Source: a virus. Taken from it: a stretch of 39,989 bases of DNA. Location of the stretch: the IMG/VR virus record IMGVR_UViG_3300021963_000269, positions 1 through 39,989 of that record, one strand, 5' to 3'. Of the stretch, positions 15,610-32,577 are shown piece after piece (position 1 is the first letter of the stretch; the number at the start of each line of letters is the position of its first letter). The position numbers were made by a program, and so were the translations under genes. The notes beneath the pieces are model-generated. The model ran no database searches. It had not been told where the DNA came from and saw only the letters and a program-made list of their open reading frames with translations.

Positions 15610-17025
15610 TTACTTCCAGTTAACTCCTGATCCTTCATTTGATCCTCCTGATCCAGGTATTCTTTTTCTTGAGTCAGCTACATAATCAGACCACTTGTCT
15701 AAATTATTGAATTCAAAGTATTTACCTGCATTATCAAAGTCAACTTCCCCTATCTCTTCAGTTCGGCCGTTTGAATTCTTCTTAAACACTTTCAATTTAC
15801 CAGCTGCTCCTTGTTTAAAGGTGTATTGTTTATCCTTTGAAAACTCTGATAATTGATCATATTTCCCATTAATGATAAGCTTTCTAATATTATCAACAGT
15901 TTGACTACTAGTATCTTTTGGCGTGGTGGTGGTAGTACTACCACTTGATGATTTAACAGGAATTTCATCTTGAGTTGATTTACTCTCTAGATAAATCCCT
16001 ACAGTTCTTATAACTGCATCTTGAGACGCTTTAATTTGCGCCGGAGTAAGAACAGGTTGATAAGTGTCTGTAGAATCCAATCGCATCTCAATAAGCCTAG
16101 TTGACGCTGTTTTAGCAAACTCAGCCTCCTCTTCTGCTGTCATTAGAGCTTTATTCATAAATGCCCTAGTATCATTTTCTTTTTTGATCATAGCTGCCAT
16201 CTTATTATTGTAGTCAGCTTGGCTCCAGTATGAATTGTATTGACCTCCTGTATTATCTCTCAATATACTTGCTGCCATTCTTGGATTATCGGTAAGCGCA
16301 CCTACAAGATCAGTAAGTTTAGTTGCATATGCGCCATTATTTCGAACATCATTAATTGTATTAATCCCGTCTTCTTTAAGAAACGGAGCCCATTCTTTTA
16401 CTACAGAGCCTACTTGTTCGTTAAGGTTTACTTTGGTAAAAACTGTGTTATTAGGCATGGCCATTGATCGAAAGCTTTGAACGGAGCTAGGATCTAATTG
16501 ACCGGTATTAGGATCAACTTTACCCATGCTCATGTTACCACTATCGTCAATAAAAATTTGCTTATCTTTTAATGTAGACATTTGAGCAAAAAATTCACCT
16601 GAGTCTGTCGTCAAACCGGAAGAATTAACATCAGATTGTTGTTTCTGAATCTCAGCCATTTTAGCATCATATGTCTTAACAGTATTAGCAAATGTACCCC
16701 AACTATCCATTACGGTAGTCATTTTTTGCTTATAATCTTTAGGGCTAATTTGTCCGGCTTTTAACTGCTTGTTTAATCCATTAATAAATTGAACTCCGCT
16801 TTGCGCGCCATTCAATGTCATTGTTTGGAATGTCTGACTTTTACCAAGTTCCGTCTCACGGATAATTTTAGCATTGTCGGTTTGGATCTTATCAAGCTCC
16901 TCTTTTTCAAGTGTTCTTCTTTCTGAAATACCTGAAAGAGTTTTAGATAGATCAGTTGTTAGCTTACCTAAGTCTAATGTTTGTGACGGCGGAAGATATC
17001 CGTAATATTCTTGTCTAGTTGCCAT
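15610..17025 (-). CDS. Internal virion/ejection protein candidate, 471 aa (T7 gp15-like position)
   Basis: Middle gene of the three that end the late operon. The N-terminal 140 residues are helical and Gln/Lys-rich (LDLGKLTTDLSKTLSGISER, then EKEELDKIQTDNAK), and a low-complexity SSSGSTTTTTPKDTSS linker at about residues 355-370 precedes a small C-terminal domain. No enzyme motif is visible. The assignment rests on order, helical composition and size, as in T7-type gp14-gp15-gp16 sets whose products form the DNA-ejection tube. The start is 21 bases from the giant gene on one side and one base from the previous stop on the other. Confidence 0.6.
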   Translation of the reverse strand: MATRQEYYGYLPPSQTLDLGKLTTDLSKTLSGISERRTLEKEELDKIQTDNAKIIRETELGKSQTFQTMTLNGAQSGVQFINGLNKQLKAGQISPKDYKQKMTTVMDSWGTFANTVKTYDAKMAEIQKQQSDVNSSGLTTDSGEFFAQMSTLKDKQIFIDDSGNMSMGKVDPNTGQLDPSSVQSFRSMAMPNNTVFTKVNLNEQVGSVVKEWAPFLKEDGINTINDVRNNGAYATKLTDLVGALTDNPRMAASILRDNTGGQYNSYWSQADYNNKMAAMIKKENDTRAFMNKALMTAEEEAEFAKTASTRLIEMRLDSTDTYQPVLTPAQIKASQDAVIRTVGIYLESKSTQDEIPVKSSSGSTTTTTPKDTSSQTVDNIRKLIINGKYDQLSEFSKDKQYTFKQGAAGKLKVFKKNSNGRTEEIGEVDFDNAGKYFEFNNLDKWSDYVADSRKRIPGSGGSNEGSGVNWK

Positions 17026-18167: not shown

Positions 18168-18175
18168 CAAATTTA
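18168..18175 (-). promoter_or_regulatory. Possible -7 box (TAAATTTG) before GNAT-like gene
   Basis: On the minus strand TAAATTTG ends three bases before the ATG at 18164. It matches TAnnTTTG. No TTG at the expected -33 distance was found, so it may be a translation-start context instead. Confidence 0.25.
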
Positions 18176-18895
18176 AGGAAAACTTTTGAATACTGATGCC
18201 CCAACGGCAAACATTGTTACCTCATATGTTTTATCGTTCTCAAGATCGACTTGTAGGTAGTAACCTCTAGGTCCAAATGACTCAGCTGTAGGATTTTTAA
18301 CAACAACTATCAAGTCATTTTGCAATGGTGTGATAGCTACAGAATCAACTGTTATAGTGGTGTTATTGAAGTTTACGATTGATCCGATAAACTCTAGGCC
18401 GCCATTGATGGCTCTGTAAGCCAAATCGCCGATATTTAAGTATGAAGGTATGTCAGACAAGAATGTGATTGTTGTCCCGACAATATTATCTACATTCCCT
18501 ACACCTTGCGTAGACAATAAAGATGAATCAGTATTAGATAGTGGCCTTCTGATAAATGAATACCAGCGCCCTTCTTTTAAATCATACCAGTCATAATCAA
18601 TAAACCCTTCATCTAAATTGGTATGCATTGTAGTTCTCCATGGGTGGGTACTATCCTGCCAAATATTCTTGAATTTCTTGATTGTAGTTGGCTCTATGTT
18701 GAATATCGTACTTAATGTAGACGTGTAGTAAGTCTCATAGAATTTATTCCTGATCGGGTTTAAATTGTGCAAATATAGATTCCCATTCTTAAATGAATAG
18801 AAATGACTATTCATATGCAACATCCATTCAGGCACATAAGACCATCTAGATGTCCATCCATTGGCGTAGTTGTAATAAGATAAAGTATCTGTCAT
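18173..18895 (-). CDS. Phage tail/structural protein, 240 aa
   Basis: The N-terminal part (GWTSRWSYVPEWMLHMNSHF, YSFKNGNLYLHN, then a run on RNKFYETYYTS) matches the pattern of the C-terminal domain of P22-gp10-like stabilisation proteins, where it packs at the tail hub. The second half is a small beta domain (VGTTITFLSDI, LEFIGSIVNFN). It follows the glycosyltransferase by 19 bases. A split-off domain of the gp10-like protein or a separate tail tip protein are both possible; I cannot tell which. Confidence 0.6.
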   Translation of the reverse strand: MTDTLSYYNYANGWTSRWSYVPEWMLHMNSHFYSFKNGNLYLHNLNPIRNKFYETYYTSTLSTIFNIEPTTIKKFKNIWQDSTHPWRTTMHTNLDEGFIDYDWYDLKEGRWYSFIRRPLSNTDSSLLSTQGVGNVDNIVGTTITFLSDIPSYLNIGDLAYRAINGGLEFIGSIVNFNNTTITVDSVAITPLQNDLIVVVKNPTAESFGPRGYYLQVDLENDKTYEVTMFAVGASVFKSFP

Positions 18896-18914: not shown

Positions 18915-19826
18915 TTAGACCAAACAGCTTTTCATTCCCTTGATCATCTCATAGTAGTTGTATGAGCATCGTTTGTCACTGAGCTTAAGATCAATACCAA
19001 ATGGATACTTGTGCATGTACTCAGCCTTATAGAACATCTCTTGGTTGTTGTTTTGAACACCGGCATTATGGAAGAAGTATACATCATCCCACCGGCTGAT
19101 CGGACAAGTGGCCCAACAAAAGTCAAACTCCTTGATCACCTCGACATGCTTGCCAAAATACCAAGCGTTCCATAGTTCGGCCCACATGCTTGCCGTCCAA
19201 GCTTGTATGCCGTATGGATCACCTTCCTTCTTAACGTTCTGCATTTTGGTTAGTAGGTTGTATAATGCTCTAGCATCTAACTCAACTTTCTTCCAATAGG
19301 TTGACGTCAAGTTCTTCATAAGCTTCTGAGCGCCACCACTGTTATGCTTGTTTGCTTGAACGATTTCTTTCTTTATGCCGATTTGGCCACACATAGCATT
19401 TAATACCTCTTCGCCTTTGCTCATAATGTAATCGTATCCTATGTATGACACAGTATCAGAGAAGTACCATGTGTCGTCAGCTAGGTATGGACTGAAGTCC
19501 AAGTGCTTGGTAAATACGAAGTCAGAGTCATGGAAAAAGAACGCATCGTTCGATGGGTATAATTCAAAATGCTTCTTAAGTATATGTGCTTGAATAGCAG
19601 GTGGATAGTTACAACTACCTAAAGTATCTTCGTAAAAATAGAAATGAGCGACATCTGAATAGTTCTCTACAAGCTTTTGCCATGACTCAGGAATTTCACC
19701 TTGATATCCTGCTACCACGTCAATGTTTTTGTATCCTAGCGATACAAAGTTGTGGATGTAAACCTCAACCTGCCAAGCATAATAGTCTAGCGCTGGTTGC
19801 GCTGAAATCATTCTAAGTGTCCTCAT
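18915..19826 (-). CDS. GT-A-fold glycosyltransferase-like protein, 303 aa
   Basis: The start is fixed by the TAATG junction with the preceding tail fibre gene (ATG at 19826). The N-terminus (RTLRMISAQPALDYYAWQVE, then KNIDVVAGYQG) is a Rossmann-like nucleotide-sugar half; FFFHDSDFVF provides the DxD (DSD) motif that binds metal and sugar nucleotide; NSGGAQKLMKN lies at a position equivalent to acceptor-loop motifs; and FFHNAGV near the end gives a late His like the one GT8-type enzymes use for metal. Together this is a convincing GT-A pattern, although the donor and acceptor are unknown. It is translationally coupled to the Thr-tract fibre gene, which suggests that this fibre, or the host surface, is modified. 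Confidence 0.7.
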   Translation of the reverse strand: MRTLRMISAQPALDYYAWQVEVYIHNFVSLGYKNIDVVAGYQGEIPESWQKLVENYSDVAHFYFYEDTLGSCNYPPAIQAHILKKHFELYPSNDAFFFHDSDFVFTKHLDFSPYLADDTWYFSDTVSYIGYDYIMSKGEEVLNAMCGQIGIKKEIVQANKHNSGGAQKLMKNLTSTYWKKVELDARALYNLLTKMQNVKKEGDPYGIQAWTASMWAELWNAWYFGKHVEVIKEFDFCWATCPISRWDDVYFFHNAGVQNNNQEMFYKAEYMHKYPFGIDLKLSDKRCSYNYYEMIKGMKSCLV

Positions 19827-22477
19827 TAGCAAGATATTGAACCACCGGTCCAATCGCTGCCATCCCATTCGTATGCAATGTTTGTAATAACTTGCAAGTA
19901 CCAAGCTGCTGGTGCAGGATCAGATCCTAAAAGGTCAACAAATATACTATTTCCCGGAACACCAAGCATACCATTTACATAAAAAGTTTCTATATTTAAA
20001 ACTGTACATACGTCAGCGCTATTGGTATTGCTTGACAATATCAATGCTGTTAATGGCGGCCTTGTCGTCGTTGTGGTAGTACTAGTAGTAGTTGTTGTGG
20101 TAGTACTAGTAGTTGTCGTTGTAGTGGTTGGAATAGATGACAAGCATTCAAAACAACTTTCATATGAATACCAAATATCAGCGTCTGTGGTAGTAGGAGC
20201 TATAACCGACTCAAGCACACTGCATATACTAGAACTATCTTTAACTGTTGTACCAAGAGCTAATGGTTCAAATGATTGAATCTTTAATTTCTTATATGTA
20301 GCAGTTCCACAAATTAATGATCTGTAATAATATGTAGGAGCAGTAGTCGTAGTCGTAGTGGTCGTTGTAGTTGAGCAATTATATTTATCAAGTATTTGAC
20401 CGGTATTTGCAATTAATAGTGCATATGTTTGTCCTAAATAAATAGCTTTATACCATTTAAATCCACCGTCGAATAATGTTGTTCCGGCTAAATCATAGTA
20501 AATAAAACCGTTTATTTCTAGAGTATTGAAATAAAAAGTTGTTGTTGCACCTGTTTGAGCGCATGCATTTCTAAAAGAAACTTGAGCATCTAAGTCTAAC
20601 TTAAAAGATATCAACGGAGCAACTGTAGTGGTAGTCGTCGTTGTCGTTGTAGTAGTTGTACCGCTACATGCCGTACAATCTCCGTATACAACTATTGGAT
20701 TCTCAGTAAGATAGTATGGGAAAGTAGCCGCTGAAGTGTTTGTTATTTCCCAGCAGTTTCCATCATCACTTTTAACGATATCACTTATACCTGCTCCTCC
20801 AGTTGTTGTGTCTAATAAAATAACTTCAACAGTTGGGTCTTGGCATGACTGAGCAACAAAGTAATCACCTGCCGGCAGTGTTGTCGTAGTTGTACTTGTG
20901 GTTGTTGTGGTAGCTCCGGGACAACTAAATGTAGCCATAACCGTTCCGTCCTGATCAATCTGAATAACTTCAGCTGAGTTGTCTAAGTAATACCACTTCT
21001 CACCACCCATGAATGGTTTGCTTATTGCAGGATCATAAAATACGGTATCACCTCTAGTTGGAACAGGCTGTGTTCCTATAAAGTATAATTGAGTAAATGT
21101 TGGAATAACACCACATGCATCTGAAGCCACCTCTTTGAATTGCTCCACATCAATAAGACACGGCTGAGCATCTGATGATGAGATAACACTAATATTAATT
21201 AGCGTGTCATTAGACGTTCCAAGGCAATTGCTAGCGTTAATGGTAAGTCTATATGTGCCGGTTGGAGCGTTATTAAATGATACGACACCATCTGCAAATG
21301 AAGCACCTATTGGAAGATCGCTAGCAACAATTGACCAAGATGTCGGATTGTTTAATACATCAATCACCTCAAATGACTGAGAGTTAGATGTTACTGTTAT
21401 TGGATTCTCATAGATAAATGGAACAGCGTACTCGTAGCAATTACACAAAGAAACAGTTAACACTAATCCGTTCTCATCTACCTCAATATATGTCTTATTA
21501 GTTGGACTTGGTACTGTACAAGTAACAGTGTCAATCATGTGAAGCGTCCCGGCATTTGAATACACTACACTGCCGTCAGATTCAGTAAATACAACGTCAC
21601 CAACAACCGGAAGAGCGTTTAATCCATTGTGGTATACTAAATCAGTAGGACATTGTGCACACACATCAGAAGGTATACCATCTGTTATATCTAAATAGAA
21701 TGATGTTAAGTATGTGTCAATTTTATTCACGATCCATAATGAACCTGTAAATGGAGACGATACGATAAGATTTGCAGCAGGCTCTGGAATATCCTTAAAA
21801 AACTCTAATGACCCGACTCCATTATTGACTAATCCATCGTATGGGAAAACTAATCCAATCTCATCCTCAGGTATACCAGCTGAAATTAATGCATTGTAGT
21901 TTGATAAACTATTAACACCAACATACAATGAATCTCGAATGATAGACCCGTTCCACTCAACTTGAAATCTAGTCGGCTGATCAGGATCCATTAGATTGTA
22001 AGATATACCGGCACGTCCGATATTAGCTCCTAAGTCAAATCCAATTGTTCTAGAGCTAGTTTCGCCTAGATAAGATACAACTGAGTCCATCTTATCCTCA
22101 TAATCCCAAAGCAAATAAATGTATGGGTAGTTGTTTGGATTGTTAAAAACAAATGTACCTTGAAACTCAGTACCATTAAAGTAAACAGGTATCTCAGTAG
22201 CCAAAGAAAGAATCAATGTCTTTTGTTCACTAGTATACTCAACGTCAGACACCAAGTAGTAAAACTTGTTATTTAACGTTGGGGCCAATTGTCTGTAGTC
22301 AGTATATATGTCACCTGCTTTAACGGTAACCGTTGATCCATTGTATGGTATATAATCAACCCCGCCCACACCTGAATTGGTGTCAAATAAAGCGATTCCG
22401 CTGCTGCTTAGTATTACATTGTCAATTGTATATTGATCACTGCCAGTATATTCAAAAGATTGTTTTGTTCTCTCCAT
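19826..22477 (-). CDS. Tail fibre/tail surface protein with poly-Thr linkers, 883 aa
   Basis: Beta-rich surface protein. Residues 1-350 form several beta domains. Around residues 360-430 there is an Ig-like domain (VTSNSQSFEVIDVLNNPTSW, then DGVVSFNNAPTGTYRLTI), similar to putative-Ig domains of bacterial surface proteins. From about residue 520 on, four Thr tracts with occasional Ser (about 521-535, 606-618, 702-712, 782-808) separate small modules of 65-90 residues that alternate between two types and are rich in Cys. It follows the gp10-like tail gene by five bases and joins the glycosyltransferase by TAATG. Thr-rich linkers of this sort are common in Bacteroidota phage tail proteins; receptor binding is the likely role. 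Confidence 0.7.
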   Translation of the reverse strand: MERTKQSFEYTGSDQYTIDNVILSSSGIALFDTNSGVGGVDYIPYNGSTVTVKAGDIYTDYRQLAPTLNNKFYYLVSDVEYTSEQKTLILSLATEIPVYFNGTEFQGTFVFNNPNNYPYIYLLWDYEDKMDSVVSYLGETSSRTIGFDLGANIGRAGISYNLMDPDQPTRFQVEWNGSIIRDSLYVGVNSLSNYNALISAGIPEDEIGLVFPYDGLVNNGVGSLEFFKDIPEPAANLIVSSPFTGSLWIVNKIDTYLTSFYLDITDGIPSDVCAQCPTDLVYHNGLNALPVVGDVVFTESDGSVVYSNAGTLHMIDTVTCTVPSPTNKTYIEVDENGLVLTVSLCNCYEYAVPFIYENPITVTSNSQSFEVIDVLNNPTSWSIVASDLPIGASFADGVVSFNNAPTGTYRLTINASNCLGTSNDTLINISVISSSDAQPCLIDVEQFKEVASDACGVIPTFTQLYFIGTQPVPTRGDTVFYDPAISKPFMGGEKWYYLDNSAEVIQIDQDGTVMATFSCPGATTTTTSTTTTTLPAGDYFVAQSCQDPTVEVILLDTTTGGAGISDIVKSDDGNCWEITNTSAATFPYYLTENPIVVYGDCTACSGTTTTTTTTTTTTVAPLISFKLDLDAQVSFRNACAQTGATTTFYFNTLEINGFIYYDLAGTTLFDGGFKWYKAIYLGQTYALLIANTGQILDKYNCSTTTTTTTTTTAPTYYYRSLICGTATYKKLKIQSFEPLALGTTVKDSSSICSVLESVIAPTTTDADIWYSYESCFECLSSIPTTTTTTTSTTTTTTTSTTTTTTRPPLTALILSSNTNSADVCTVLNIETFYVNGMLGVPGNSIFVDLLGSDPAPAAWYLQVITNIAYEWDGSDWTGGSISC
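20071..20118 (-). repeat. 24-base tandem repeat inside a Thr tract
   Basis: Two adjacent 24-base units (20071-20094 and 20095-20118) share their first 19 bases (TTGTGGTAGTACTAGTAGT on the plus strand). Both read as Thr codons with a Ser. This looks like an in-frame slippage repeat that changes linker length. Confidence 0.7.
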
Positions 22478-22482
22478 TTTAT

Positions 22483-25400
22483 TTATCCGTTAAAAGCAAT
22501 TAGTGCGATATCAGTTTTTCTTCCAAGGCCTTGTGTCAATATAAATTCTAATTCTTGATCACAAAATCTAACAACAAATTTAACCTTTCTAGGCGCGGCA
22601 GTCAAGTTATTTTGAACATTTGCGTATATATCTTGAGAGTTTGTCCCTGATAAACAATAAGGAGGAACATTCAACCAATTGGTGCCATATCCAATACTTA
22701 CTAGTTCAACAGTCCATGTCGTTACTGAATTAATACTAAACATAAAATAGCTTTGACCATTTGTCTGACCAGGTATTCCTCTACTTCCTGGAGTAATTGA
22801 TGTGCGGCATGAGTTTCTTTCAATCTCATTACCTGATATCATGTATGTCTGATTGTGCGGATCGTATGCTCCTAGCTTTTGCGTGTTTGGAGAATATGCA
22901 AAGAAGTCGATAAAGTAGTCGCGCATTCCATTCTCTGATATCTCTACGATGTCAAAACCAGTCATCATTAATACAACACCACGACGCGCATCTGAGAAGA
23001 AATAGTTATTAGACCAAACAGCAAAACTCTCCGGGTTATCACTAATACCATACTCGCTTTGATGAGCAATTTGTGTACCAAGTACTTCAGGAACTGAAGC
23101 AACTTGACTACCGCCAACAGCATCCACCAATAAGTTTTTACCATAGTAAACTGACGTCACCTTGTCTTGGTGTAAGACCAATAGATCAGTATCACGAGCG
23201 AATAACTTTCTTACCGGACCGAATGACTTATCGAGGTTCTTAAAGTTCGCTAGAGATAAATTAAATTCGTTCAATCGGTTGATTGATGAGTCGCCACGAT
23301 ACAAACCACTATATGTAAGTGATGCGTATTTATGCTGCTCCTCGTAGTCTTCAATTATTGTACTAGCTCTCAAACTATAGTCCATTCTAGGCGCATTGTA
23401 GTCGTCTAGTATTCTATATGACTCAAGACCATTGCCATAAGCAAATGCGTTGTAGTCGCTGTTCTTAAAGCCAACGTTATTGATCCTAACTCTAGCAGGA
23501 TTGGTAACACTGCTTTGATCTTGATCTGATGCATTGTATGATATACCTCCCGGTTGATTGGTTCCTGGGTATGTTAAGTTGATAACAACTGAATATCTAT
23601 CAATTGCACTAGTTACTTGGTAGAATCCAGGCGTAATATTTGGCGCTGTTACATACACCATATCCCCTGCTGTAAAGTAATGAGGAAACTTATGGTCTAT
23701 GTTTGTTAGCTTAGTTCCAATACCTGAAGCAGTTGATTTATCATAACGCCAAAGAACAATGTGCTTACCTTGATCAATAGGGTATGTTCTACTAAGCTCA
23801 TGGAAGATATCAAGATCACTTTCCTTCGGAACGGTTTCAGCGATTAGTTGTTTGTTTGATGGTGTTTGAGTTACTTTTAATTCAGCTTGTATTAAGTTTC
23901 TACTACCGCCTTGATTTAATCTAAATCCTTTTATTAACATCCATTTATTTGGATCAGTAGGTTGTACTTTTATTACATTTGTTCCAGCATTAAATAAAGA
24001 AGTTTGATCATAACCATTCCTAAATGTAACTGCATTTGCTCCTATATTAGTGCCATTTTCATCATATTGAACAAATGTTTGATATGCTCCTGACATCCAA
24101 AACCATTCTTCAATATTTTTGTAATATTGAGAAGATGTCCATGACATACTACTAGCATTTTGACCTGGCGCACCATTTGCTGGTCCATCATTTAAAATAT
24201 TTATTGATATAGAAGATCCTGGGAATATTTCACCGGGACCTTTAAGATTTGACACACCTCTATATTCATAATTATATCCCCCAAGATAATATCTACCATT
24301 TGGATTATATGTTGTAGAATACGGAGGATTTGGTAAACCATAATTACCAACAGGTTGTTTAGGTGTACCTTGCTCCCCTAAGCTTGTTATATTAAATATA
24401 AATCTATCGCCTACATTATATCCACTCGTTGAGGTAAAATTAATTCTTAAAACAGTATTACCTACAGATAGTACAGCGCCAAAAGTAGTTATATTTATGT
24501 CTGCTATCCAATATGGATTAGTAGGATTTACATCATCTGTCCAATGAAATGAAGTTCCTCCTGGTAGTATTTCAACAGTTATACGTCTATCTGATCCTGA
24601 ACTAGATAATAAACTATCAGGTATAATGCTTGGTCCTGTATTTTGTAATGTATTATCACCTGTAGCTGAATAATAAACAGGCAATGGAACATAAAATACT
24701 GGATTTTGTGAATTTTGTATAGCTGAAGGCGTTGGTCCTTGTATAAAAGTTGAATAAGCGCCTCTTCCCGATCCAGACCAACTATAATTTTGTTGTATTT
24801 GGGCACTTAAAAAAGTATCATTAGCCGAAGCTTTAATCTTGAAGTATAATCCCTCTAATGCATTCGACCCTACTATAAAGTCAGCCGCCTTATACTCAAG
24901 CTCAAGTACTTTGAATTGCTTATTTGTATGAGTAGGTCCATTGTCAAATGTCTTGAATATAATGTATCCGTTTACAGTGATCTTATCACGGTCAGCTTCA
25001 TTAATCAAAAAGTATCTGAAGTTACCATCCTTTATAAATGTCCTAGGAAAGATATTATAGTAGTCACCTTTTACCTGCTTTACAAAGAATCGATAGTTGG
25101 TTGCCCAACAAGGTGCAGGGTTTTTAATCTCAACAGATAAGCTATTTGCTGTACTTGAATTAACAGCAGGTATATATACAGCGTTTGATAAATTATTTGA
25201 TGAGTTAGTATTGTTTGACGTTAGTACAGTCGTCATGCGGCCATAGTCATCAGCGTAAGCAATACCAACCTCATAGTCTCGATCACTTCTGAACGTTTGC
25301 TGAGGCTCTCCAGTTATTGGTGTTCCTACATATCCAACCTTATAGTCAAGGTTAATAAATTGATTGTCACACGACACAATATCTCTAAACTGAGTATAGT

Positions 25401-26424
25401 CACCATAGATCAATCGGTTACCAATAATCTCTTGAGCTGAAGCCAACAAGGGTACGTTGTCAAACAATCGAGTCGTCTGATCGGCCGGTAGAGCGGAATA
25501 TGTTTTGTTGTTCATGAAGGTGAACTCATACGACGAGTCGTCAGGTATGTTAAGTTCCTCCTTATTGAATGAGTCAACAATACGAACGTTCAATCCGCTT
25601 GTATCTCTGACAAGTAATTGAATCTCAGTAACAAACTGATTACCAGTCTGAAAGGTTATATTAGCTTGGTTGAATATGTTAACCATACCCTTGTTCTCTC
25701 CGGTCTCTGTGTCGATAGAGAATCCTTTCGGATGAAAAGCAACTCCTGAATATGGTGACATAGAGCTGTACTCGTTGTCAACGTACTTGAATCGGTAGCT
25801 GAAGTATAAGAACTTCTGCTCAATATTATTTGGCTTAGGATCAGGAGCTAGTGCATTTGATAGCCTAATATACGGTGCGTTTAATGGCGGACGAAGAACT
25901 ACGTTAATGTCGTCACTGATCTTAGCATCGTTAATGTTATAAGTCTTACATCTGCTGATATTAATTCGTCTTGGAGGATTGTATCCATCAGTCCAAAACA
26001 ATAAGCTACCTGCGGAGTTATACACATAGTTTACACCCGTGATGATGTATCTTCCATTAAAGTTAAGTTGTCCTATAGTGCTACCTAATACTAGCACAGT
26101 ATCTCCCGTTAACTCGTTGTATTCAAATATACCATCAAAGTTATCTGATGTAACAAACCAATAGATAAGGTTCTGAGCTTCATAAGGAAGCGCCCCGATA
26201 ACGATTGGGTTTGTAATAGATCCTAATCCACGAGCAGCAAGTATATCATTTATATAGGCAATTCTTTCATTACCATAAGGATTCTGAGCAGCTCCAATAG
26301 TTGATCCTTCAGATGTGTTAAGCGTTACGTTTACAGCATCTAAATACTCACCATCAGCAATAAGACGCTTGTCCACGTCTTTATTCATCCTCCCGGATAA
26401 GAACTTTTTTTCTATTTCAGCCAT
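22483..26424 (-). CDS. P22 gp10-like tail/stabilisation protein with C-terminal BACON-like domain, 1313 aa
   Basis: The N-terminus carries the signature RMNKDVDKRLIADGEYLDAV followed by NTSEGSTIGAAQNPYGN, which is shared by large hub/stabilisation proteins of many podoviruses (P22 gp10-type; tail plug or hub). The middle is beta-propeller or beta-sandwich in character, with many Asn, Tyr and Thr and repeated short strands. The C-terminal region (about 1228-1300) has Trp-Thr-Val at the first strand, NWLNVPP, then YANVQNNLTAAPRKVKFVVR and a final FILTQG, a close fit to the BACON domain pattern, which in crAss-like phages occurs in a tail protein and may bind mucin or glycans. The gap to its 5-prime neighbour is two bases and to the next gene five. 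Confidence 0.7.
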   Translation of the reverse strand: MAEIEKKFLSGRMNKDVDKRLIADGEYLDAVNVTLNTSEGSTIGAAQNPYGNERIAYINDILAARGLGSITNPIVIGALPYEAQNLIYWFVTSDNFDGIFEYNELTGDTVLVLGSTIGQLNFNGRYIITGVNYVYNSAGSLLFWTDGYNPPRRINISRCKTYNINDAKISDDINVVLRPPLNAPYIRLSNALAPDPKPNNIEQKFLYFSYRFKYVDNEYSSMSPYSGVAFHPKGFSIDTETGENKGMVNIFNQANITFQTGNQFVTEIQLLVRDTSGLNVRIVDSFNKEELNIPDDSSYEFTFMNNKTYSALPADQTTRLFDNVPLLASAQEIIGNRLIYGDYTQFRDIVSCDNQFINLDYKVGYVGTPITGEPQQTFRSDRDYEVGIAYADDYGRMTTVLTSNNTNSSNNLSNAVYIPAVNSSTANSLSVEIKNPAPCWATNYRFFVKQVKGDYYNIFPRTFIKDGNFRYFLINEADRDKITVNGYIIFKTFDNGPTHTNKQFKVLELEYKAADFIVGSNALEGLYFKIKASANDTFLSAQIQQNYSWSGSGRGAYSTFIQGPTPSAIQNSQNPVFYVPLPVYYSATGDNTLQNTGPSIIPDSLLSSSGSDRRITVEILPGGTSFHWTDDVNPTNPYWIADINITTFGAVLSVGNTVLRINFTSTSGYNVGDRFIFNITSLGEQGTPKQPVGNYGLPNPPYSTTYNPNGRYYLGGYNYEYRGVSNLKGPGEIFPGSSISINILNDGPANGAPGQNASSMSWTSSQYYKNIEEWFWMSGAYQTFVQYDENGTNIGANAVTFRNGYDQTSLFNAGTNVIKVQPTDPNKWMLIKGFRLNQGGSRNLIQAELKVTQTPSNKQLIAETVPKESDLDIFHELSRTYPIDQGKHIVLWRYDKSTASGIGTKLTNIDHKFPHYFTAGDMVYVTAPNITPGFYQVTSAIDRYSVVINLTYPGTNQPGGISYNASDQDQSSVTNPARVRINNVGFKNSDYNAFAYGNGLESYRILDDYNAPRMDYSLRASTIIEDYEEQHKYASLTYSGLYRGDSSINRLNEFNLSLANFKNLDKSFGPVRKLFARDTDLLVLHQDKVTSVYYGKNLLVDAVGGSQVASVPEVLGTQIAHQSEYGISDNPESFAVWSNNYFFSDARRGVVLMMTGFDIVEISENGMRDYFIDFFAYSPNTQKLGAYDPHNQTYMISGNEIERNSCRTSITPGSRGIPGQTNGQSYFMFSINSVTTWTVELVSIGYGTNWLNVPPYCLSGTNSQDIYANVQNNLTAAPRKVKFVVRFCDQELEFILTQGLGRKTDIALIAFNG

Positions 26425-31878: not shown

Positions 31879-32577
31879 TTATGCGTAAATCAGTGTAGTT
31901 TTGTTAGGTCTACTTCCTATTAAATAGTTATTAAGTGTACTTCTATTAATGTTAAAAGCGTCTGCCGCCTCAGTAATACATCCATAGTATATACCACTAT
32001 GCAAATCTAATATTATTTTAGCTTTCCAATTATTACTCCCACTTATCGACTTAGATCTCTTCTCTAAACATTCTTTAGATAATTTTCTACCTAATAAAGC
32101 TTTTGATATTTTATCGCAAGTATCAGCGCTAACTGTTTTTCCTATTTGTGACTTTGATATTTTCTCACAAGTCTCTTTAGAAGGTTTTCTACCTATCAAT
32201 GAAGCTATTATTTTTTTCTTTGCTTCATCCGTGTGCCTATATAATTTTGTTTTAGATCTTATCTTTTCCTTTGTGTCATCTGAAACAACTTTTATTTTGT
32301 CTTCAGTATTAGTTAAGATACAATTTAATCCATTTAAACCAATTACGCTAAAATAGTCTTGCCAGTGACGCTCTCTATTGTTAAGATGTATTACATCACA
32401 CGTTTCGATTATTTCGAATACATGATTATCTACACCATATTTTACTATAGAACTATAGAGCCTAGGCTGCATTTTGCATTTTAATTTTCTATAGGATTCA
32501 AATCTTTTATCAATATCAATTGATTGACCGATGTAAATCCTTCCAGAAGGAGATGTTATTTTATATATTCCTGTCAT
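31879..32577 (-). CDS. GIY-YIG homing endonuclease with NUMOD3-type repeats, 232 aa
   Basis: The nuclease domain shows G3-I4-Y5 and Y15-I16-G17, catalytic-type R25 in DKRFESY and E69 in NNRERHWQDYF, as in freestanding GIY-YIG enzymes. Residues about 110-170 hold three NUMOD3-type DNA-binding repeats (IGRKPSKETCEKISKSQIGK and two similar), and the C-terminal end (ITEAADAFNINRSTLNNYL) is a NUMOD1-like helix-turn-helix. Such enzymes cut phage DNA at a specific site so that the gene is copied into related phages. It shares an ATGA junction with the portal gene, an exact fit that avoids breaking either gene. No intron is seen; the portal reading frame is intact. Confidence 0.9.
   Translation of the reverse strand: MTGIYKITSPSGRIYIGQSIDIDKRFESYRKLKCKMQPRLYSSIVKYGVDNHVFEIIETCDVIHLNNRERHWQDYFSVIGLNGLNCILTNTEDKIKVVSDDTKEKIRSKTKLYRHTDEAKKKIIASLIGRKPSKETCEKISKSQIGKTVSADTCDKISKALLGRKLSKECLEKRSKSISGSNNWKAKIILDLHSGIYYGCITEAADAFNINRSTLNNYLIGSRPNKTTLIYA

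Follow-up and report, generated by a model that had tools for sequence, protein, structure and literature searches.

We analysed a 39,989-nucleotide stretch of DNA from a crAss-related phage (IMG/VR virus record IMGVR_UViG_3300021963_000269, positions 1 to 39,989; hereafter the window), in which a gene for a protein with four long threonine/serine (Thr/Ser) tracts adjoins a gene for a glycosyltransferase (GT). From sequence, gene context and structural models we propose that the family of this GT is highly likely to be a peptide O-glycosyltransferase that acts on poly-Thr tags of virion proteins. In phages encoding it, parts of the particle very probably carry a sugar coat made by the phage itself, because in many unrelated phages the GT recurs beside a particle protein with Thr runs, and relatives that lack the GT also lack the runs.

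When viral contigs were searched with the window GT, 80 loci were returned, and in nearly all of them a Thr-tract gene adjoins the GT gene. The full set of 169 scored GT loci combines this search with a second query (the phiFL1A homologue), a sample drawn by a poly-Thr DNA pattern, and annotated phages; the pattern-drawn loci were picked for poly-Thr, whereas those found by the two GT queries were not, and the databases are redundant, with many loci fragmentary. A tract of at least seven Thr or Ser residues was encoded directly upstream of the GT in 157 of the 169 loci and directly downstream in none, and was found in 57 of the 1457 remaining genes. After clustering at 70% identity, the upstream tract was present in 28 of 32 clusters. 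Most of the exceptions are informative: L071–L075 carry TTTLAPTTT repeats instead, the C-terminal Thr tags of L103 and L139 are shorter, in L055–L057 the tract gene lies farther upstream, and L250 is PTPT-rich. With the tracts masked, the upstream proteins split into 18 similarity groups (at least two of them artefacts, namely a fragment and part of a broken GT). Judged by sequence similarity, the association therefore holds with many unrelated partner proteins. These include an extension of the crAss-like tail muzzle, capsid proteins and tail tube proteins.

We compared phages that carry the GT (GT+) with relatives that do not. In the GT+ phages phiFL1A, R3.3, iLp84 and 1706 both the major capsid protein and the major tail (tail tube) protein have poly-Thr C-termini, whereas the corresponding proteins of the GT-less Bassarid and phiJL-1 (both of the genus of R3.3), Javan47 and 049ML001 end without poly-Thr. 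The capsid protein of R3.3, for example, ends in ...AIFTAGTSATTTTTTKAPTTTTTSSHA, and that of Bassarid in ...AIFTASPKA. At the level of whole genomes, ACN6 runs were present in 10 of 11 GT+ phages and in 2 of 10 GT-less ones (p=0.002); the one GT+ phage with no such run, 521B, carries TTVKPTTVAPTT repeats instead. Six relatives of the window have the muzzle but no detected GT, and no tract of at least seven residues was found in their scanned muzzle-region genes. Searching the viral contigs with the muzzle protein gave close relatives only, and GT-less relatives were therefore taken from the phage collection.

These comparisons bear on the possibility that the GT modifies the neighbouring structural protein at other Ser or Thr residues, within folded domains, and that the tracts are mere markers of surface proteins. 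Such a mechanism would fit the pairing, which by itself specifies no site. We nevertheless consider it very improbable, as the Thr tract is the sole feature common to the partner proteins across phages: the Thr-tract protein of the window and its Chryseobacterium counterpart have no significant similarity, the C-terminal difference between R3.3 and Bassarid in capsid and tube is the tag itself, and the tracts stay Thr/Ser while the remainder of the protein diverges.

In two tail tube genes with a poly-Thr end, those of Staphylococcus phage VB-SauS-SA2 (L299:13117-13930) and Arcanobacterium phage TPWB06 (L301:13173-13935), this end overlaps a short open reading frame (ORF) in another frame that is itself mostly poly-Thr. 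A programmed frameshift could give a longer Thr tail to some of the tail tube subunits.

For a held-out set, bacterial genomes were scanned with the GT alignment, which gave 75 previously unused loci. In a midpoint-rooted tree of the held-out and phage sequences, a virus clade was separated from a cellular clade with a support of 0.93. Tracts were scored here as at least six Thr or Ser residues with at least five Thr. In the virus clade a tract was encoded directly upstream of the GT in 36 of 40 loci and within the locus in 39 of 40, as opposed to 2 and 4, respectively, of the 35 loci of the cellular clade (Fisher p about 1e-15, with relatedness ignored). The co-occurrence of the GT with Thr-tract proteins in related genomes, which the original prediction had put forward as a check, was found in the scored set and in the virus clade of the held-out set. 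In L324 and L330 the adjoining capsid gene is untagged and the tail tube gene farther along is tagged, an arrangement that fits action of the GT in trans. In the prophages L150 and L378 the GT gene is broken, and poly-Thr tags are still present on capsid, connector and tail tube.

Members of the cellular clade (among L309-L380; for example L332:5627-7143, L322:5606-7569 and L361) are mainly larger proteins of ~480-830 amino acids, apparently with two domains, and are encoded on chromosomes of Bacteroidota (Pedobacter, Sphingobacterium, Chitinophaga, Mucilaginibacter and others). The operons examined contain precursor peptides with a GG leader that match TIGR04149 weakly, and the sampled ones also encode a C39-peptidase ABC transporter, HlyD, LanC-like proteins and a split lantibiotic dehydratase (LanB). 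A candidate precursor was present in 16 of 34 cellular loci, and in 12 of these the core contains TT; longer runs are TTTTTTT in L332 and TTTTTTSS in L322. The cores often begin near PTT. Gene context thus suggests that cellular members of the family may act on Thr-containing peptides too, and these operons possibly make glycopeptide natural products that have escaped annotation.

We asked whether the tracts themselves bear signs of selection. The tracts of the window protein, defined as at least eight Thr or Ser residues, are 11, 12, 11 and 22 residues long and are encoded by mixed codons (ACT 18, ACA 17, ACG 10 and ACC 7), with the longest run of the same codon being 3. In comparison with orthologues, synonymous differences affect about half or more of the tract codons, while the tract residues were the same in 583 comparisons, Thr/Ser swaps in 72 and other residues in 33; outside the tracts, identity between orthologues is only 47%. 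Since the residues are kept despite synonymous codon change, the tracts are under selection for Thr/Ser identity. An origin by slippage of a DNA microsatellite is ruled out by the mixed ACN codons and the synonymous divergence. In an AlphaFold2 model of the Thr-tract protein (mean predicted local distance difference test score (pLDDT) 74.6; predicted template modelling score (pTM) 0.36), beta-domains of moderate confidence alternate with the tracts, whose own pLDDT lies below 50; the tracts are therefore predicted to be flexible linkers.

The GT matches PHROG_4417 over its full length (residues 6-300 against profile positions 2-292 of 293, E=3.4e-64), a family annotated as ‘unknown function'. 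Sequence searches against Pfam, NCBIfam and the Protein Data Bank (PDB) gave no usable family for the GT, and no Pfam family, GT8 and GT24 included, scored above chance for it or for its 37 homologues. The AlphaFold2 model, built from 38 sequences, has a pLDDT of 95.4 and a pTM of 0.92, and its top PDB matches in Foldseek are GT-A enzymes, with a probability of 1.00. The best of them is WbbM, with a template modelling (TM) score of 0.53, followed at TM scores of 0.4-0.5 by UGGT, by the GT8-type enzymes LgtC, GlyE, Gat1 and glycogenin, and by LARGE1 and COLGALT1. What structural matching of the model settles is the GT-A fold and not the acceptor. A likeness to plant peptide O-glycosyltransferases (GT95/96), noted by eye, is not claimed, as no such model matched.

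The original prediction of a GT-A-type enzyme with a DSD motif agrees with this fold and with the conservation of the motif, as both aspartates of the DxD, D100 and D102, are invariant in 38 homologues. So is a C-terminal HN-G block, from crAss-related through Enterococcus phages. Catalytically dead GT folds occur in other systems, and the domain might by analogy serve without glycosylating, for example by binding Thr-rich proteins in the manner of a chaperone or lectin. We found no support for such a role here, and with both aspartates and the HN-G block invariant among such diverse homologues it is the least probable of the alternatives.

Several observations weigh against glycosylation of the tracts by this GT. 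The closest solved structures include, besides protein-acting enzymes, ones that use polysaccharide or lipid-linked acceptors (WbbM and LgtC). These two lipopolysaccharide-type enzymes, and phage GTs on record that change host serotype or DNA (PMC12619734), would fit a GT that acts on a host glycan (lipopolysaccharide, teichoic acid or capsule) or on phage DNA, altering reception or blocking restriction; its structural-gene neighbours would then reflect gene order, and the tracts would be plain linkers. We regard this explanation as distinctly unlikely, as it leaves unexplained why Thr-tract genes adjoin the GT on one side only, and do so in unrelated phages from both Bacteroidota and Bacillota, why the tags are missing in GT-less relatives, and why the cellular relatives lie in peptide operons. 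Glucosylation of DNA by the GT, in particular, has no support from sequence or context. Cases of a GT without a Thr-tract protein, which the original prediction had counted as adverse, fall mainly in the cellular two-domain clade; L308, on a short contig, is the sole locus of the virus clade with a GT and no nearby Thr tract, only ~3 kb upstream being covered. The GT-less controls were selected by homology and not at random. Finally, the GT was found in only 13 of 97 loci of the pattern sample that have a coding poly-Thr tract, and poly-Thr therefore also has other uses or is served by other enzymes. Presence of the GT is thus a much stronger sign of Thr tracts than a Thr tract is of the GT.

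Most phage contigs with long Thr tracts in L157-L276 are without the GT, and in some of them GT2, GT4 or N-acetylglucosamine-type transferases adjoin the tract gene. Pfam matches of GT2/GT4 type were more frequent beside tract genes (~7-8 of 74) than in other parts of the same loci (~3 of 100), an estimate from family tallies in which one protein may count twice. This small excess over background is suggestive only.

The features of the window locus are given in Table 1. The GT is taken from its ATG; the ORF list offers an alternative TTG start upstream, at 19904.

Table 1. Features of the Thr-tract and GT locus in the window.
Feature	Coordinates	Strand	Evidence
Muzzle C-terminal domain as a gene of its own	18173..18895	minus	PF25729 crAss_MUZ_C E=4e-12; phi38:1 muzzle residues 1079-1323
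GT, PHROG_4417, 303 amino acids from ATG	18915..19826	minus	PHROG_4417 E=3e-64; AlphaFold2; Foldseek
DSD (DxD) motif of the GT, residues 100-102	19521..19529	minus	both Asp invariant, 38 homologues
TAATG junction, stop of Thr-tract gene and start of GT, common base 19826	19824..19828	minus	sequence
Thr-tract protein, 883 amino acids, beta-domains and four Thr/Ser linkers; predicted acceptor	19826..22477	minus	sequence, AlphaFold2
Thr tract 4, residues 784-805, 22 Thr/Ser	20063..20128	minus	sequence
Thr tract 3, residues 702-712, STTTTTTTTTT	20342..20374	minus	sequence
Thr tract 2, residues 607-618, 12 Thr	20624..20659	minus	sequence
Thr tract 1, residues 523-533, TTTTTSTTTTT	20879..20911	minus	sequence
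Muzzle-type virion protein, N-terminal part	22483..26424	minus	phrog_14478; phi38:1 muzzle residues 1-1072

The window contains a crAss-like muzzle module, with the PF25729 gene beside a muzzle-type structural protein. In Cellulophaga phage phi38:1 the muzzle homologue is a single gene encoding 1324 amino acids. The window has this muzzle split in two, and the gap between the halves is occupied by other genes, among them the Thr-tract gene and the GT. Of the cultured GT+ phages that were found, Chryseobacterium phage MA9V-3 is the nearest. In L059 the Thr-tract region and the N-terminal part of the muzzle are fused in one protein of 2067 amino acids. The Thr-tract protein had no match in Pfam, and a viral fold search gave only weak beta-domain matches. 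Because its gene sits in the muzzle split and is fused to the muzzle N-terminal part in L059, the protein is best described, on sequence and model grounds, as a putative muzzle-borne extension made of a chain of beta-domains; the label ‘fibre' in the original prediction is not retained. A protein of 471 amino acids from the same late operon (15610..17025) has an STTTTTP run at residue 363 and may be a second acceptor.

The four long tracts, the gene coordinates and the shared TAATG of the original prediction are correct by sequence. Its claim that the junction causes the two proteins to be made together in similar amounts has to be abandoned, because close junctions are common both in the window, where most adjacent late genes are spaced by 1-5 bp, and across phages, where the gap at the GT locus is 5 bp or less in 137 of 168 loci. 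The one-base overlap is ordinary phage gene packing, and we rule it out as a sign of equal expression. Elsewhere among the structural genes, a GIY-YIG-type homing endonuclease gene (31879..32577) adjoins the portal gene.

Glycosylation of virions as such is already known. According to PMC12363180 and PMC11652166, phage GTs O-glycosylate capsid and tail (tube) proteins of mycobacteriophages; PMC12619734 reports that the capsid and tail tube sugars are at C-termini. The sugar shields the virion against antibody. The phages concerned are Che8, Corndog and Myrna (Freeman et al. 2023, PMID 37329881, as reported in PMC12363180, PMC12619734 and PMC11652166). The window resembles them in having a phage-encoded GT, and the Gram-positive GT+ phages resemble them in the capsid and tail tube as predicted targets. 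However, the mycobacteriophage sugar was measured, whereas glycosylation in the window family is inferred from sequence, context and models; the Che8 GTs gp108-110 had no similarity to the GT family in hmmsearch and hhalign, and, unlike those of the GT+ phages, capsid and tube of Che8 lack a poly-Thr tag. The mycobacteriophage systems are thus, by analogy, a precedent in kind with unrelated enzymes. What is newly proposed here is the association of PHROG_4417 with poly-Thr; within the library searched, no paper described poly-Thr glycosylation or a PHROG_4417-type GT family.

Other known systems are also close to the window in part. GT8, GT24 and related GT-A enzymes (GlyE, LgtC, glycogenin, Gat1, UGGT, LARGE1) have the GT-A fold and the DxD in common with the GT, and several act on proteins, but with TM scores of only 0.4-0.5, about 8-13% identity and no Pfam match the GT is no member of these families by the tests used. 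The GG-leader operons of Bacteroidota for ribosomally synthesized and post-translationally modified peptides (RiPPs), with TIGR04149-like precursors, house homologues of the GT and have cores that often contain Thr-Thr and sometimes a Thr tract, but their enzymes have a second domain and form a separate clade, and the phage system has neither precursor peptide nor exporter. The general O-glycosylation of Bacteroidota, to which the original prediction pointed as a parallel, also puts O-linked sugar on Ser/Thr. It targets exported proteins at an Asp-containing motif, whereas the four tracts consist of Thr/Ser only and the GT family occurs just as readily in phages of Bacillota, so the parallel is a poor one.

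In the mechanism we propose, the viral branch of the GT family would be dedicated to threonine runs. The GT would work in the cytoplasm during synthesis of the virion proteins, before or during assembly, and would transfer a sugar from a host nucleotide-sugar to the side chains of Thr (and Ser) in disordered poly-Thr segments. The acceptor in the window's phage would be the 883-residue chain of beta-domains on or beside the tail muzzle. In many Gram-positive phages the GT would modify, in trans, C-terminal tags of the major capsid and tail tube proteins. The exterior of the particle would thereby gain linkers and tails glycosylated in a mucin-like manner, for which linker stiffness, solubility, protease resistance and surface masking are candidate benefits; masking from antibodies is unlikely to have been the original benefit for environmental phages. 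The wider form of this proposal, that poly-Thr is a portable tag through which one RiPP-operon-related GT family, in phages of Bacteroidota and Gram-positive bacteria, glycosylates in trans any tagged virion protein (capsid, tail tube, decoration protein or muzzle) to give a mucin-like coat, seems to us reasonably probable. The original prediction was that the phage glycosylates its own receptor-binding linkers. The idea that the GT acts on the tracts is now much better supported than before, because of the unrelated acceptors, the tagless GT-less relatives and the cellular peptide operons; this support does not extend to a role in receptor binding.

If this is true, PHROG_4417, so far of ‘unknown function', and the Thr runs that have been a puzzle in phage structural proteins would become one testable system, and phages with glycosylated particles would be predictable from sequence. 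Virion glycosylation would then reach beyond mycobacteriophages to phages of Enterococcus, Lactobacillus, Lactococcus, Staphylococcus and Bacteroidota. The work on phage structures would be affected, as sugars on flexible ends would be invisible there. For the glycosylation of proteins, the poly-Thr run would offer an acceptor tag that is short and portable, and the cellular branch of the family would be a pointer to unannotated glycopeptide operons in Bacteroidota.

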